DNA from: Niebla homalea
Lineage: Eukaryota; Ascomycota; Lecanoromycetes; Lecanorales; Ramalinaceae
Length of the DNA stretch: 64,000 bases
Direction of reading: 5' to 3'
Assembly: GCA_019925105.1 (NCBI GenBank)
Contig: JAHGAU010000006.1
Coordinates: 1,116,001-1,180,000, forward strand
Under the pieces are notes generated by a model. It worked only from the letters and a program-made list of their open reading frames with translations. It made no database searches and was not told the origin of the DNA. The stretch's first letter is position 1, and the number at the start of each line of letters is the position of its first letter. Of this stretch, positions 1 to 8,700 are shown piece by piece. The position numbers were made by a program, and so were the translations under genes.

Positions 1-1
1 C

Positions 2-1951
2 GAAGCTGATATTGTGGTCTTTCAGGAGACTAAGATCCAGCGTAAGGATCTTTCCGATGATATCGTTTTGGTACCTGGGTGGGACTGCTACTTTAGTCTG
101 CCTCGATATAAAAAGGGTCTGTCTTTTCTGTATCGTAGTGTAAAGACAAGGTTCATTTGGCATAGGCTACTCAGGGGTCGCCATTTACACGCGCCAGTCT
201 GTATGCGCCCCCATTCGTGCAGAGGAAGGCATCACTGGCGTGCTTTGTCCTCCGAATTCTTCAACGCCTTTCTGCGACCTTCCATCCGACCAGCAAATTG
301 GTGGCTACCCAACAAGAGAACAGCTCGTCAAGTCGTCCATCGATGCAGCTGCTCTCGATTCAGAGGGACGAGCCGTGCTTCTCGAATTCCCTGCATTTGT
401 ACTTGTTGGCGTCTACAGCCCTGCGAATCGGGACGAGACAAGGGATGAATACCGACTCGGCTTCTTGAATGTTCTCGACGCCCGGCTACGGAATCTGGAC
501 GCCATGGGCAAACAGGTCTTCCTGACAGGCGATCTCAATATTTCGCGAGAGGAGCTGGATGCAGCAAATGCCGAAGCCTCGATGCGAAAGCAAGGACTTT
601 CAGGTTTCGAGTTCGTTTCTAGTCCTTCAAGAAGGCTTTTCAATCAACTGCTGGGAGGTGGCAAGGTGTTTGGAGAGCGAGACGCTGGTCGAGAGCATCC
701 CATCCTTCACGACATCTGTCGAGCCTTTCATCCACTTCGCAAGGGGATGTTCACTTGCTGGGAACAGAAAGTCAATGCCCGTCCAGCCAACTGTGGGGCC
801 AGGATAGATTACGTGTTGTGCAGCCTGTCGATGAAAGATTGGTGTGATGACTCGAACATTCAAGAGGGCTTGATGGTGAGTGTGAGCTCTATTGGGGGGA
901 GGAGAGGGGGAGAGAGAGGGTGGGGCGCATTTGCTGATACGCGTACAGGGATCCGACCACTGTCCTGTTTATGCAGTCCTGGGAACGATGGTCAGTCTGC
1001 GCAGCAATCGAGTTCACGTCCGAGACGTTATGAATCCTCCAGGCATGTTCGTCAATGGTGACCGGCAACGCCAATACTCGGCCAATCTTGATATTCTTCC
1101 AATGTCTGCGAGGCTGATTCCTGAGTTTACTGGTCGTCGCAACATCCGTGATATGTTTACCCGCACTCCATCCATTCCCCATGTAATGGACAATGGAGAT
1201 TCGTGTAGGCAAGTGGCTGGTGACGAGGTCCCTATGCCCAACCCGTCGCTGCTAGGGCCGAATGGAAGTCAATCTCCTTCAAAGCTGCCGCGGTCGAGAG
1301 AAGTCAAGAGTCCCGCACAACCCTCGAGAAAACGGCTGCAGGCACGAACGATGACGGGCACCGCGAACAAGCGTCTTAAAACTGCAGTTGCATCGGCGCC
1401 CCCTAAAGAGGCTCGCAAGGGCCAACAAAGTCTCCAAAATTTCTTCAAACCTCCACAAAAAGAACAAATGGCCTACATAGATGATTCGGAGCAGACATCA
1501 ACCACTAAAGAGAGTGGTATGTCAATCACAGAGGCACGTCCGAGGGAACAGTACTAATTTGCTAATCCCAAACGTTATCACAGAAGAAGGATTGAGAGGG
1601 CTCTCACAACGCCGCAGATTATCTGGGGAGGTTGGGGCTAAACCGGAAGACATTGTGACACTCGTGGCAAGTTCGCAAGCACCCACAGAAATCATCAATG
1701 ATCCTGTACAGAGTAAAGAGTCGTGGTCGAGATTGTTTGCAAAACCTATCGCACCTCGTTGCGAAGGACACGACGAACCTTGCATAACCCTGCTGACTAA
1801 GAAGCCCGGCATGAACCTAGGACGTTCGTTCTGGATGTGCCCACGCCCATTGGGTCCATCTGGTACCAAGGAGAGGAATACCCAGTGGCGCTGTCAGACT
1901 TTCATTTGGTGCAGCGATTGGAACGCTCATGAAGAGACATGTGGACTCTGA
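2..1951 (+). CDS. APN2: DNA-(apurinic/apyrimidinic site) endonuclease 2 (5' partial)
   Basis: Class II AP endonuclease of the exonuclease III/EEP family, acting in nuclear base-excision repair. The start codon lies left of the window. Exons read 2-116, 166-875, 949-1516 and 1584-1951, giving 586 codons, all in frame. Visible hallmarks are VVFQETK (catalytic Glu), KGYSGVAIYTR, LTGDLNI (Asp and Asn of the active site) and GSDHCPVY (catalytic His) just after the second intron. Downstream is a linker with a PCNA-interacting box QQSLQNFF (1423-1446), then a C-terminal GRF zinc finger (residues CEGHDEPC, GRSFWMC). The third intron (1517-1583) has a TACTAAT branch site. APN2 is the standard left flank of the ascomycete MAT locus. 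It converges on MAT1-2-1. The identification is very secure; only the N-terminus is missing. Confidence 0.96.
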
Positions 1952-2519
1952 TATTGTATAATGTCATCAAGGGGGTCCAGAAGCGCGCATCGTCGTGCGA
2001 TGGAATGAGCGATCTTCGACCAAATCTCATGACCTGTATGTAACAATTTTCAGTTCTAGGATGATCCGCAAGGGCGACCTTCTTGACCAGAAGATTGTGA
2101 AATACTATCAGGGGATACCACTCACAATGAGGGATCTAAGCCTTTTTAAATCTCCGAGTGCGTTATCTGGCCAACGGACACGTTCATAGGCTCCTGGGTG
2201 ACTGCAAATGCTTTAAGGCCTTTGAAACATGGAGGCAATGCCGGTGAATAGATCTTCTTAGGTAAGGGAAATTAAGTATCATGATGGCAGTCCTTTAGAA
2301 ATATCTAAGTCAAAGCTTTCTCTATGACTATGGATGCTGTCCCAAAGAACAACTGCACCTGCTACCCCCTCTCCGACATCCCCTGTTTCTTGCAAATTGT
2401 AAGGTCATGGTTTCAGTGACGATTTCGTGTGAGAAACGGACCAATGATACTTAGTGTTGTTTGACACGAATTGATCCCACACTATCACTGTTAGACAGTG
2501 GCCCCAGATAAGCCTGCGA
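1952..2519. other. Intergenic spacer between APN2 and MAT1-2-1
   Basis: 568 bp between two convergent 3' ends. Only short open frames are present and none has a recognisable domain. It probably holds both 3' UTRs and one border of the idiomorph, which cannot be placed without the opposite mating type. Confidence 0.6.
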
Positions 2520-3731
2520 CTACGCGAAGGCGCCCTCCTCCATAAAATCTTCCCAGGTGGTGTCACCAACGTTGAAGCCAGCACAAGTTTCATAGAAGAC
2601 CTTTTGTGACAATGACGCTTTTGTGGGCTCGGAGTGGAGAGGCGTGAGATTGATGGCGTCGAAGTTGATTGGTTGGTTGGGCCTGTTTGAGATGAAGTTA
2701 TTGTAATTTGTGAGGTATGTACGAAGCTCCTCATCACCCATGTTACGATCCCCGAGATCAATGACAGCGTTGCCAGAACTGGTCATGTGGATTTCAGAGT
2801 GTGGAGCAGTGTCTATTGAACCAGGTCCTGGGGTCGGAAAATTGTTCGCATCCGAAGAAGTCTCCGCTGATTGCTCCCCGTGGGCAGCAGCAGCGGCGAG
2901 TGCCTCTCGTTTCTTGGGGCCCAGACGCCTCTTAATTTGACTAGGTTTTCGCGGACTGAATTGATAGTTTGGATGCAAAGTCTTGTGACGAAGGGCTTCC
3001 TCCTTCGACAGCTGCTTCCATTCGTCTTTGGCCTCCGCACTCAAATGTTTCCACACCTTGCCAATCTCAATCGCTGAAATTCAGTTAGATCTGTGGGTGA
3101 CTTGAGTAAAAATTCACTTACATTGTTGGGATAGTGGCATGTGGCTATACTTTTCGGGATGTGTTTTGTATTCAAATCGACGGAAGAGCACCCAGGGATT
3201 CATAGGCCTTGGCACGTGAGGCTCTTTGCTGGTGCCCTTCAATGCTTTGGTCTGAGGCCAATGCATGGTAAGGATTTCGGGGCAGCGAATGGCCTCGATC
3301 GTCAGACGATTTCCCGAAGCTTCCGCAACTACCTGAGCTTCCATCTCAATCATGGCGCTGTCGATTCTATCAACAAGCATGTTGGCATGTATCAACTAGC
3401 ATGCTTACCTGTACAGCAATACCATCTTTTGAACGTTGTCCGCGCCGATGTGATGTGCAAAGTCCATGAGAAGTACGGGCACGTTGCAATTACCTTGGTC
3501 CAACTCGCGTTCAAAAGTGGTCCAAACGATCATGGTAGCTTGATCAGGTACACCGAGATTGGGCAAGGTTTGCTGCAGCTGAATAGCTGTCATAGGCGGA
3601 GGGTTATTCATTGCCTCACAGACTGTGGTAATCTTGAAGAAATATTTGATGCGAGATGGTCCGTTAAAATTGTATCCTGTTGCTTGGGCTTAGAGACGTT
3701 GATGTACTTTACTTGTAGGTGTAGTACTCAT
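2520..3731 (-). CDS. MAT1-2-1: Mating-type protein MAT1-2-1 (HMG-box transcription factor)
   Basis: Master regulator of the MAT1-2 mating type, a nuclear DNA-binding protein of the MATA_HMG family. Exons in transcript order: 3731-3713, 3676-3409, 3366-3122, 3073-2520, giving 361 aa. The HMG box spans about residues 147-217. It begins VPRPMNPWVLFRRFEY, continues through SQQSIEIGKVWK, and ends in a basic tail KPSQIKRR. An intron (3074-3121) splits a Ser codon inside the box (T|CG), the conserved intron position of Pezizomycotina MAT1-2-1. The N-terminal part (TTFERELDQGN, MDFAHHIGADN) also resembles this family. Start choice: the model uses ATG at 3731 and needs a 36-nt intron (3677-3712); the conservative alternative is ATG at 3611 with 333 aa. 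Both are in frame. It is divergent from the homeodomain-like gene, with 248 bp between the two ATGs. The family call is near certain; the first exon is not. Confidence 0.93.
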
Positions 3732-3979
3732 CCGACGTTGAAGGAAGATTCGATGCGTAGGATGTAGAAGAGATCAAAGTTGGTGAGAAAGAACAACACA
3801 AAGACTCTGGAAGAGTGAATCAAGATTGGTGCACACGCTAGCCGTATTTGTGGAAAAGAAGGGGTTGGGGTTTCTTTGTCCAAAGCTTTTATGACACACT
3901 ATCGGATTGCGTCAATTTTTAATGAAAGTTGTCTCCTACATTTTCCCCTCTTAAACTCATGACAGTGTAGCTCCACAAT
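3732..3979. promoter_or_regulatory. Divergent promoter of the two MAT1-2 idiomorph genes
   Basis: This 248-bp spacer separates the ATG of MAT1-2-1 (minus strand) from the ATG of the homeodomain-like gene (plus strand). It must hold both 5' regions, so the two genes are likely co-regulated. If MAT1-2-1 starts at 3611 the spacer is 368 bp. No specific binding site is claimed. Confidence 0.6.
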
Positions 3980-4718
3980 ATGTCCTTGCAAACATTGCCT
4001 GAAGGTCCAGCGCGCAAATCCTCGAATCTACAATCACGAGTAACCGCAATGCAAAGCTTACTATCAACGCTCGAAAACTGGTCTGCTCAAAGTGAACGCG
4101 AAGTTTCTCGAGAGATGGCTGAAGAGGAAACACGTATCGAGTTTGAGCCAATCATATTCAGTAAGAGGATTGTCTTGCGAAGCCAGGTGTTAGCACCAGT
4201 CGAACGGCTTGTCAGTTTTCACAAGCTGATAAAAGAGGACTGTAACATCGCTGACGAGGTGGTCACCGCATTCGCTGGGGGGGAGTGTGAACCACTAAGT
4301 CTCTTCATCTACTGTTATGTTCGAAATAGGATCGAGGAGTAAGCCTGACTATATAGAAATCCTGGCAAGCTGACTTACTTCCAAAACACAGACGTCAGAA
4401 ACAAACTGCACAGCTTTCAGGTCTATTTCTTGCCGACGAGCCATTTGATAAGGATTCGCAAGACCTGTTCGAACAATTCTACGAACGTCACGGCCGCCCC
4501 AACCTGGATGAGAAATTATTACTGCGACATATCAGTGGTGCCCAACTCCATGAGATCGATGAGTGGTGTACGTATGCACGTAACGAGACAAGCTTGAATC
4601 TACTAAGAATCAATCAGTTGCAGCCAAGCACATGCGAACGCGCTTTCATACCATCCTGCTACGGTCTCTCCAAGTTATAAGTCGCCAAGGTTCGAACACT
4701 CCCTCAGCGCAAATTTGA
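3980..4718 (+). CDS. Second MAT1-2 idiomorph gene; degenerate homeodomain-like protein
   Basis: Exons 3980-4338, 4392-4567 and 4618-4718 give 211 aa. Splice sites are GTAAGC..ACACAG and GTACGT..ATCAG, the latter with a TACTAAG branch site. Residues 1-120 show no known domain. Residues about 141-190 can be aligned to a homeodomain: L145 and F149 at helix 1, then P156, K161, L164, G169, I175, W178, F179 and R185. With W178 taken as position 48, P156 is 26, L164 is 34, I175 is 45 and R185 is 55, the spacing of a real homeodomain. The helix-3 Asn51 and Arg53 are replaced by A181 and H183. Intron 2 splits the codon of F179. Seen: motif and spacing. Known: several Pezizomycotina lineages have lineage-specific extra MAT1-2 genes, and fission yeast mat1-P pairs an HMG gene with a homeodomain gene. 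Inferred: a mating-type regulator or cofactor. It could also be one of the named auxiliary MAT1-2 genes, or a chance resemblance. Confidence 0.68.
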
Positions 4719-5744
4719 GGGCTGTGAACGATCAGACATGTGGGGAGACACTGAAGTATATTAGCGGAAACATGATCATCAACCTGGATGAAGTTCGTTT
4801 GTCCTTCGTGGTCATTCTTTTTGCTGATAACACCTCTCCTTTTGCCGTCATGAGATGCGCACAAGTTGACCATGATGCTACTTCTTTGTATACCGGCAAA
4901 GATGTGACATCAGATCGGACTACTAGAACATTCTCTTGAGAGGTTTCAGTGCTGCCTCTTGCTGCGGACTAGAAAAGGCATCATGTGAAGAATCTTAAAA
5001 CAACAGCGAAAAAATTTTCGTCACCCATATCCACCGAACGAGGCGTTAGGATTCCAAAACATATTGAATAGACCAAGTATCTCAAGTAGTCGAAAACTGC
5101 CGCTTCACAGTAATAACCCCAAGATCTTTGGACATGGGTCTGAGTTTCCATGTCATCAAATTCGACACCACGAATATATGATGAATGGTTCTGCTGAAAG
5201 AACAAAATTGCGTTTGTCTCCCCTTAATTCTTTTTCGTCCTCCAGAAAGGTCAAGTGTACTCCGCACATGTCAAAGCTCCATTCAGACAGTCTGAAAGAT
5301 TCCAATCTTCGACATCGTGTTGCCATTAGCACAAGCGAAAGACAGCGCAAAGAATAGATCGAAGTACTTTCCCAGTTTAAGCCAAAGCTACTTCGAGATA
5401 CAGGTGTCGCGAACTATGTTCACGGTCGACGAATAAGCGGTAACCGAAGGGGTATGTCTAAAGTTTGGAAAGATAGGGTTGAGCTCGGAAACTACATTGC
5501 CTTGCGAGCCCTGGCGTTTACACGAATCTGCGCTTACGGAATGCCTGCATTTGTGACACGTTGCCTTTGCGAATCATGCCTCATTGTATCTTATGCTATA
5601 CCTTGAGAGCAATACTACCACCAAGGTCAATCACAAGTGTTAATGAGATGAACCTATGTACATGGACGCCCAATCGCCTCAACATTTTTGAACATTGCTG
5701 GCCAGCACAGTCGATTCTTCAATCCTACAATCCCACCGAATACC
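4719..5744. other. Idiomorph/SLA2 spacer, no supported gene
   Basis: About 1 kb between the 3' ends of the homeodomain-like gene and SLA2. It holds two overlapping minus-strand open frames (5156-5350 and 4981-5205) in different frames whose composition looks protein-like, but neither has a recognisable domain or clear start. It could be a relic of a lost gene or plain 3' sequence. The right border of the idiomorph should lie here. Confidence 0.5.
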
Positions 5745-8700
5745 TCACTCTTCCTGATAAGAGATCTTCCTCATTTCACCGAGTCTCCGCCTGGCTTCCT
5801 CCAAGCTGTTCACCAGCTGTACAATCTCCACCTAAATGCACAAGCGAGCGTTAGTACAAAGCAACCAACGTGGTGGAAAGGCCGTTCAGCAACCAGGACG
5901 AACATACCTGCTGCTCCATTTCCCTAACCTTGAACTCATGCCGACTGAGAGACGCGTAATCAACCTCATTGCCCTCGTCCTTGTTTTTCTGCGAAATGAT
6001 GTCGTGCACTTGACGGACCAAACTCCTACACGCAGTGCCCACCGCCTTGCTTGCCTCCTCCAACCTGTCTTGCGTTTTGCTGCCAAAGTTTGCCTTGACC
6101 CTGCTTGCCGCCACGAGCTGGGCGGTAGATGCGGTAACATCATTGCTTGCGACAATGAGCTGCTCAGGGCTGTTACGGCTGGAGATGACCCCATCGGCCG
6201 TCTCTATGAGAGTGTTCGTCGACGCCGCCACGGCTTTGGCGGCTGAGATAAGCCCCTCAGTCCATCGGTTGTTCTTCTTGTAGAATGCTGCTCGCGAAGA
6301 GGACCCTCGACCCTCTTTTACAATCTCCTGTTGCGACGCTGTGGCGGCCTTGATAAGCTGTGCAATGGCTCCTGTCACAGCAATTGCCGCCTCAAGAATG
6401 CTGTCGTGGATGCGAAGCTCGTACGTGCTGTAGCCTTCTCGAGATTTCTTCATCAACTTATTCAAACGTTCGGCCGCAGCGTCGATCGCGTTCGCCGCGT
6501 TGGTCAATTCTTTGTCCACCAAGTCTCCCAGATCGCCTTTAGCACCCGTCAATTTACTTGAATTGGGTGCGAATGCGTCAGCAAGCTTGGAGAGCTTTTG
6601 TAGGTTCATGAGAACTTCGTGATTATTGTTGATGACGATGTCAGTCCTCTGAGTTGGCTCCAGCCCCTCTAAACGATAGGACTGCAGAGAGCGGAAGAAC
6701 CTGACGGTAGATTGCGCCGACTGACGACCCGCGTTCACAAGCTGGTCAGCTTTCCTATCTTCCGTGGCTAAGCGAGTTAAGCCCTTGGTGTTGCTCAAAA
6801 CGTCCGCTATCGAGCCAGCAAAGGTATTGACCGTCCGAATGATGTCAGCATGAGGGCTGTTGGGGCCATCTGCGATGAAGTTGTTGAAGGCTGTTGAGAA
6901 CTCTGTGGCGCTGGCAGAGGCTTTCTCGATCTGCGACAGGACGTACGGAGCAGAGGCATTTTGATTTCCCGCTTGCATGGTGGAGTCGAGCTCGTACAGT
7001 GCGTCATCCACTCTTTGAACGCCGCTTTGAAGAACAGAGTCGATGATGTCGTTGATCTTTTGTATATTGTTGAGCAAGACTTGGTCGATCTGGTCATCGA
7101 GAGCCTTGTCGGTGTCGCCTCCATTCATGCGTAACTCGTTAAGCTCGAGGAGCGTTTGATCCATGCCGGACTTGTATATCTCAAGCTCCTCTTCCTTTTC
7201 GCGCAATGCATTCTCCAAGTCTCCGTCTCTCTCACCAAATTTCGATTGTATGTCGTCAAGCGCGCGCGTCTTCTTTCGCAAAGATTCTTCAAGATCGGCC
7301 ATCTCTCGGTTGTATTTTGCCAACATGGAGGACAGCTCAGAGCCTTTGGCCCTGTCCGCGTTGTCCGCCTTTTCCAGTGCGAAGCGAAGCTCTCGCCTTA
7401 GCTTCTCGACCTCCTCCCTGTTGCCACCTGTGAGGCGATCTTTCTCATGCAAAGCCCGATCGCGCTCACGGATCATGTCAGCGAGCTCCAAATTCTTCGT
7501 TTTGATCTCTCGTTCAAGCTTCTCTCGTTTATCGATGGCCTCTTGAGCAGAAGCAGCTTTTAGCTGAACCCCCTTGAACTTTTGCAACAGCTCCAGATGC
7601 TCGTGCCTCAACTGCGAGTAGAGCTTCGCCAGTGCTTCGTACTTGGTCCGCCACGTATTGACTTGCTCCTGTAATGCCCTGATTTGCTCGTCTTTGGACG
7701 AGGTTTGCTGCGAAAAATTGCTATTCAGCTGATTCAGTTGGCTTTCGAGATCCTTCATGCGCCGATCATATTGCTCCAGCATCAACTGATCGCGTTCATA
7801 CTGAGCTCGGGCATTGAGGTTCTCTCGCTCCACTTCGGCCATGCGACCTTGCGTTTGGGCCTGATACTGCTCCCTTAGCAATTGATCCTGCGCTTGTCGT
7901 TGCTGCTCTTCCTGAAGCCGTCGCTGTTCGGCGAATTGCCGCTCCGCTTGTTGTTGTGCTAATTGTTGTTGGTAGTGCTGCTGATTCATCTGATCCTGCA
8001 ACCTTCGCTGTTCAGCATCATACTCTTCCTGCTGCCGTCTCTGCTCGTTCTTCCAAAATTCATTGATTGGTTCTGGCTCAGCGGCAGCTACAGGAGGCGG
8101 AGGGGTGGGTGTTGGCTCCTCTCGTTTTTCAACTTCTCTCGTTGGCCGACGTGGCAGTGCTGGTCGACTCTCGTCGTCTTCAGAAAGTAGGTTCGGGGGC
8201 TCTTGAGGTAGTTTGGGCACCGTGATCAGGCTGGTGAGATAGCGCAGATTCGAGCATTCGTAGTAGAACTTCAGCAGACGGTAGTGTTGCGTGTCGTATC
8301 GCCCTCGTAGAGGCTCTAGAGCTTCTTCATCCCCAGTGGCTGCGAACTTGTTACTTTCACAATGCAGGTAACCTCAGGATGGTGGCACATACTTGTATGC
8401 ATAGCACGTAGCATGCTGGTGACGAACTTGTAGATGCCGTAACTTTCTTGCACGAGCGGCACAAGGGCGGAGATCCTGCATTCATTGTTGGCGCCGCCTC
8501 GAAAATGGGCAAATATAAGCTTCTGAAAGGTGTCGATCTGGTCTTGCAACGTCATAAGGTCCATGATCGTCTCGTAACTACGAAACATAAGCAAGGATTT
8601 TGGAATTCGGACAAGACGTACCACACCCTTCGTTGGGATCGTTGATGGATTTGAGGCTGATATATTCTTCATATTCGAAGAGACCTGAGCGCGCGTTAAC

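Follow-up and report, generated by a model that had tools for sequence, protein, structure and literature searches.

The MAT1-2 locus and its auxiliary gene

The window (the whole analyzed stretch of 64,000 nucleotides) corresponds to positions 1116001-1180000 of contig 6 in a genome of 50.6 Mb and 52 contigs. The gene order at its left end was the 3′ part of APN2, MAT1-2-1 (reverse strand), an auxiliary gene (forward strand), and SLA2 (reverse strand), so that the auxiliary gene, lying between MAT1-2-1 and SLA2, is the second gene of a MAT1-2 idiomorph (Table 1). The putative MAT1-2-1 was identified from the second half of its HMG box, which was the part matched by PF00505 at a score below the curated cut-off (25.4 bits), together with its location; its presumed 5′ boundary is the first ATG of the upstream frame.

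Table 1 Features at the left end of the window (window coordinates)
Feature	Positions	Strand	Basis or content
APN2, 3′ part, entering from the left edge	1..1951	+	Exo_endo_phos, 36 bits; GRF zinc finger, 21.4 bits (below the cut-off of 25.9)
MAT1-2-1, putative, HMG box split by introns	2520..3611	-	PF00505, 22.3 bits, residues 5-40 of the last coding exon
Spacer separating the start of MAT1-2-1 from the divergent start of the auxiliary gene	3612..3979	.	368 bp, from sequence
Auxiliary gene (predicted)	3980..4718	+	Model from sequence
Exon 1	3980..4338	+	Residues 1-119 plus two bases of codon 120
Intron 1, 53 nt	4339..4391	+	Donor GTAAGC, branch-like GCTGAC, acceptor CAG
Exon 2	4392..4567	+	Last base of codon 120 through first base of codon 179; N-terminal arm, helices 1 and 2, start of helix 3
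Degenerate homeodomain (probable), residues 138-187 (positions 8-57), broken by intron 2	4444..4643	+	Gapless profile alignments
Intron 2, 50 nt	4568..4617	+	Donor GTACGT, branch-like TACTAAG, acceptor CAG
Exon 3	4618..4718	+	Remainder of helix 3 from Phe49 onwards, hydrophobic C-terminal extension, stop
SLA2, main exon, gene running on rightwards	5851..8373	-	I/LWEQ, 162.3 bits; ANTH, 45 bits

The alpha-box family MATalpha_HMGbox (PF04769) had no match in the genome at E ≤ 0.1; the genome therefore looks like that of a heterothallic MAT1-2 strain, in a search that was silent in all control genomes too. When the auxiliary protein was searched against the genome, only its own three exons were returned, with no second copy. 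An Rfam scan of the window gave 0 matches. From the auxiliary gene to SLA2, approximately 1 kb of sequence (window 4760-5790) was devoid of coding signal, no 300-base window exceeding 0.001 per codon. The MAT1-2 idiomorph of Letharia is reported to contain what remains of the last MAT1-1-1 exon (PMC10512270).

The model of the auxiliary gene has two introns and 636 coding nucleotides (stop codon included), and its predicted product has 211 amino acids. Intron 2 falls between Trp48 and Phe49 of the homeodomain numbering, in phase 1 of codon 49. The training set for codon-usage log-odds comprised 22,033 codons in 38 long frames, taken from the window and from sampled stretches of the same genome. 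For exons 1 and 2, codon usage supports the frames of the model: exon 1 scored 0.131 per codon (-0.29 and -0.43 in the other forward frames) and exon 2 scored 0.259 per codon (-0.03 and -0.62 in the other forward frames).

A homeodomain-like region in the predicted protein

The spliced protein was aligned without gaps with a profile panel of 12 sequences, namely five homeodomains of this genome, yeast a1, DUX4 (twice), engrailed, PKNOX1, TGIF1, and MEIS2. The alignment covered residues 140-186 with the 12-sequence profile HMM and residues 138-187 with hhalign, and W178 took homeodomain position 48 in this register. The canonical positions were assigned from a list that we take to be the standard one; the panel confirms W48, F49, N51, and a near-invariant R53 (W48, F49, and N51 invariant; R53 at least 90% conserved). 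Residues kept in the auxiliary protein were F8, F16, E17, Y20, P26, L34, I45, W48, F49, K52, R55, and R57. The canonical spacing of the 60-residue domain and its hydrophobic core were both found in gapless register, with F138, F146, Y150, L164, I175, W178, and F179 at positions 8, 16, 20, 34, 45, 48, and 49; core positions 38 and 40 were weak, having Ser and Ala instead of hydrophobic residues. The original prediction had named F149, P156, K161, L164, G169, I175, W178, F179, and R185 as matching homeodomain spacing, with 22 residues from the proline to the tryptophan. All nine residues and the distance are correct, with one reassignment: F149 is at position 19, and the canonical aromatic residue of position 20 is Y150.

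Residues that contact DNA were lost. Asn51 is replaced by Ala181 and Arg53 by His183, as had been predicted and as the gapless alignment bears out. The basic N-terminal arm was absent (net charge of positions 1-9, -3), the net charge of positions 1-60 was -4 compared with +12 for the 61-residue yeast a1 chain, and that of positions 42-58 was 0. The suspicion that the usual DNA contacts are gone is thus upheld by Ala51, His53, the acidic arm, and the overall charge. An AlphaFold model of exon 2 alone, built without relatives, contained, at low confidence, one helix (residues 140-153; mean pLDDT 50.5), which sits at the expected location of helix 1.

The 12-sequence profile HMM scored the spliced protein at 11.8 bits (E = 1.1e-5 for one sequence). 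This score was reached by 8 of 100,000 whole-protein shuffles, by 27 of 100,000 shuffles that preserved the W-F pair, and by none of 1733 stop-to-stop genomic frames of at least 60 aa (1694 distinct). The sources of these frames, all in this genome, were the window, two rDNA loci, and 20 sampled 10-kb stretches, two of which share 4 kb. Two of the 1733 frames belong to the auxiliary gene itself, and its exon 2 frame, lacking helix 3, had the highest score of all (8.1); the best unrelated control frame scored 7.2. Leaving out one row of the panel of 12 at a time gave 9.2 to 13.4 bits. The score fell to 5.1 when W178-F179 were masked and to 6.4 when exon 3 was omitted, which indicates that helix 3 matters most; the W-F pair supplied more than half of the HMM score.

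A comparison by hhalign with a MAFFT alignment of the same panel gave a score of 25.9 (probability 30.7%, P = 5e-4), which was reached by 0 of 600 shuffles (best, 24.7) and by 0 of the 40 frames tested out of 175. In an ungapped comparison over positions 14-55, 11 of the 12 panel sequences had P ≤ 0.0002 and engrailed had P = 0.0064; the best single match was the TALE protein of this genome (L003; 11 of 42 identical, z = 7.1), and yeast MATa1 also had 11 of 42 identical (z = 5.6), these P and z values being inflated because the register was fixed on the W-F pair.

Curated families gave no match. Neither the spliced protein nor its C-terminal 79 residues matched any Pfam family (PF00046 and PF05920 included) up to E = 10, and NCBIfam likewise returned 0 families up to E = 10, with search filters that discard most matches above approximately E = 0.1. 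A PDB sequence search found no homeodomain. The Homez family (PF11569) had no match in the spliced protein and none in the genome, in a search that was silent in all controls and that can miss a domain split by introns. No relatives were found in viral and genome contig collections, both free of fungal genomes. Profile searches were positive above chance with the 12-sequence panel (HMM and hhalign) and negative with Pfam and NCBIfam. Taken with the absence of equally high-scoring genomic frames, the agreement of the two panel methods supports the central claim, namely that the second gene of this MAT1-2 idiomorph encodes a degenerate homeodomain.

Published auxiliary genes and alternative explanations

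Pizarro et al. 2019 (PMC6414310), in a survey that examined 41 lichen genomes for the mating-type locus, report an auxiliary gene in every MAT1-2 Lecanoromycete except Graphis scripta and a homeodomain match (pfam11569) in the MAT1-2 auxiliary genes of three lichens, Cetraria islandica among them. The statement in the original prediction that no homeodomain gene was established in Pezizomycotina idiomorphs is therefore too strong. The homeodomain match in lichen MAT1-2 auxiliary genes is already published; its meaning is not pursued in the available part of the survey, which states that characterization of the auxiliary gene "warrants further study." The survey also groups the Xanthoria parietina gene with Aspergillus MAT1-2-4 in a preliminary tree in which the lichen groups are unsupported. 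In a later report, the Lecanoromycete gene is named MAT1-2-14, with homologs in Lecanoromycetes only, and the word homeodomain is not used in the available part of that text (PMC10512270). A homeobox-class gene is mentioned in a mating-type search of Morchella crassipes (PMC7014384). Among titles and abstracts, in a coverage that leaves out most subscription journals, none followed up the homeodomain match in MAT1-2 auxiliary genes.

The auxiliary gene described here is likely MAT1-2-14 of Lecanoromycetes, to which it is likened by description rather than by sequence. The ITS of one rDNA locus of this genome (L028) looks like that of Lecanoromycetes, so the host may well be a lichen-forming member of this class, in keeping with the assignment. 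Both are second genes of a MAT1-2 idiomorph between APN2 and SLA2, both have introns, and the sequences are very divergent. MAT1-2-14 has a pfam11569 match in three species, whereas no Pfam match was found here. In addition, the survey locates the auxiliary gene between MAT1-2 and APN2, whereas ours is on the SLA2 side, so that identity with the published gene is not certain (PMC6414310). The species may differ in gene order, or the sides may be swapped in the text of the survey. The region corresponding to the APN2 side (window 1952-2519, between APN2 and MAT1-2-1) had no likely gene besides a short frame directly downstream of APN2 (1962-2189, forward strand; 75 codons from stop to stop). 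A single 210-base window of this frame gave a weak coding signal of 0.085 per codon. It is a guess that the frame is related to lorf, a small and weakly predicted ORF that lies downstream of APN2 in Letharia (PMC10512270).

Judged from its sequence, the auxiliary gene probably encodes a worn-down homeodomain without the main DNA-contact residues. It is unlikely that the product is instead a lineage-specific helical protein of other origin that resembles a homeodomain by chance. Chance resemblance is compatible with the lack of a curated family match, with the 8 shuffles in 100,000 that score equally high for a family chosen after the sequence was viewed, and with the large share of the score that comes from W-F, but the match extends without gaps over about 50 residues, takes in helices 1 to 3, recurs when hhalign is used with the same panel, and has published counterparts in the MAT1-2 auxiliary genes of three lichens (PMC6414310). 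That the gene model is wrong, intron 2 being kept and helix 3 hence never formed, is hardly credible. The frame does stay open, to position 4680, when intron 2 is retained, and the coding signal of exon 3 was small and not decisive (0.011 per codon over 32 codons, compared with -0.06 in the retained-intron frame and 0.15 in another frame); however, the donor, branch-like site, and acceptor of intron 2 are all typical, as is its length, and splicing sets TGG against TTT exactly at the homeodomain W-F. Furthermore, four of the five other homeodomain genes of the genome have, by eye, an intron in helix 3, at other codons.

What the domain does was considered in the same way. The retention of K52, R55, and R57 in helix 3 would suit a working DNA-binding homeodomain that makes its contacts through these residues with a partner, as yeast a1 works together with alpha2 in the diploid (PMC5871698). 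Such a role is nevertheless distinctly improbable, given that Asn51 and Arg53 are both gone, that the arm is acidic, and that positions 42-58 carry no net charge. The loss of these two residues together with the acidic surface argues against DNA reading by the domain alone, and the net charge of -4 makes DNA binding by the protein on its own unlikely. Loss of the key contact residues would also be expected of a decaying gene, in which a once-functional homeodomain is turning into a pseudogene. We regard decay as very unlikely, because the 211-codon frame is open across three exons with typical splice sites, codon usage is coding-like in exons 1 and 2, and an auxiliary gene is reported in all MAT1-2 Lecanoromycetes of the lichen survey but Graphis scripta (PMC6414310). 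That the core is kept argues that the fold is still in use.

Proposed function and descent

As the best explanation, which we consider reasonably probable, this is a MAT1-2 auxiliary gene with a degenerate homeodomain that would not bind DNA on its own and would serve as a protein-protein module. The C-terminal third of the protein would be a homeodomain in which the hydrophobic core is largely intact and both the E17-K52 pair and the canonical 60-residue spacing are retained; with Asn51, Arg53, and the basic arm lost, the domain itself would no longer bind DNA. By analogy, its most likely partner would be MAT1-2-1 or a canonical homeodomain protein, encoded in either its own nucleus or the partner nucleus, and this pairing may adjust gene regulation after fertilization, in the dikaryotic stage.

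Homeodomain proteins of the mating-type locus signal the meeting of two compatible nuclei in basidiomycetes and yeasts, and filamentous ascomycetes are usually depicted without them. If the present reading is true, a homeodomain relic in a MAT1-2 idiomorph means that at least some Pezizomycotina retained this part of the system in a modified form. Such a relic could supply a common origin for auxiliary MAT genes that are now listed as domainless, and it enables a direct test, in which auxiliary MAT1-2 genes are compared as profiles and members keeping Asn51 are sought. When as many as six homeobox genes were deleted in a single Podospora strain, croziers remained intact, a result used to argue against homology of clamps and croziers (PMC3360767).

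Auxiliary genes of other MAT1-2 idiomorphs have roles in fruiting-body formation, as described for MAT1-2-4 of Aspergillus and MAT1-2-10 of Sclerotiniaceae (PMC5821092, PMC9602353). The latter is described as a gene of unknown function; in Botrytis, its mutants formed stipes and failed to develop apothecial discs, croziers, or asci (PMC5821092), which indicates that auxiliary genes can act after fertilization.

In Saccharomycotina, MATa1 (homeodomain) lies beside MATa2 (HMG), a pairing in one mating type like that of the homeodomain-like and HMG genes at this locus. In several species of Lipomyces, MATa1 and MATa2 occupy the ancestral yeast site between SLA2 and APN2 (PMC6692504), the interval that also holds the homeodomain-like and HMG genes here. 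The two products differ: yeast a1 is basic, with both Asn51 and Arg53 present, whereas the auxiliary protein has neither residue and its homeodomain-like region is net acidic. A doubtful extension of our reading is that the auxiliary gene is the surviving Pezizomycotina counterpart of MATa1. The "a" mating type of the common ancestor of Saccharomycotina and Pezizomycotina would then have consisted of an HMG gene and a homeodomain gene, sited together between SLA2 and APN2. In filamentous ascomycetes, the homeodomain gene would have persisted as fast-evolving MAT1-2 auxiliary genes (MAT1-2-14, perhaps MAT1-2-4 and MAT1-2-10), whose products changed from DNA binders into cofactors and became too degenerate for standard profiles to recognize. 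Both the content and the order of the genes at the locus (SLA2, homeodomain-like, HMG, APN2) fit this descent. However, the same picture would result if some other homeodomain gene had been recruited into the idiomorph, and the closest single panel match was a TALE protein and not a1. The wide descent is further opposed by the report of MAT1-2-14 homologs in Lecanoromycetes only, as far as that source is available (PMC10512270).

Five canonical homeodomain genes were found in this genome (L001-L005), none of them on the contig of the mating-type locus. Their spacing and core residues are as in the auxiliary protein, and W-F-x-N-x-R was present in all five (in two after exons were joined by eye). 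By eye, L001, L002, L004, and L005 (contigs 36, 12, 26, and 14) have an intron within helix 3 and the TALE gene has none there; codon 52 is interrupted in two of the four genes, and in the other two the intron falls between codons 46 and 47. A shared intron position as proof of homology was rejected, the intron of the auxiliary gene being in codon 49.

On contig 31, the rDNA gave two 5.8S matches (L028 and L029) approximately 11.6 kb apart, and their unequal scores (171.3 and 164.2 bits) suggest that the rDNA units may not be identical.
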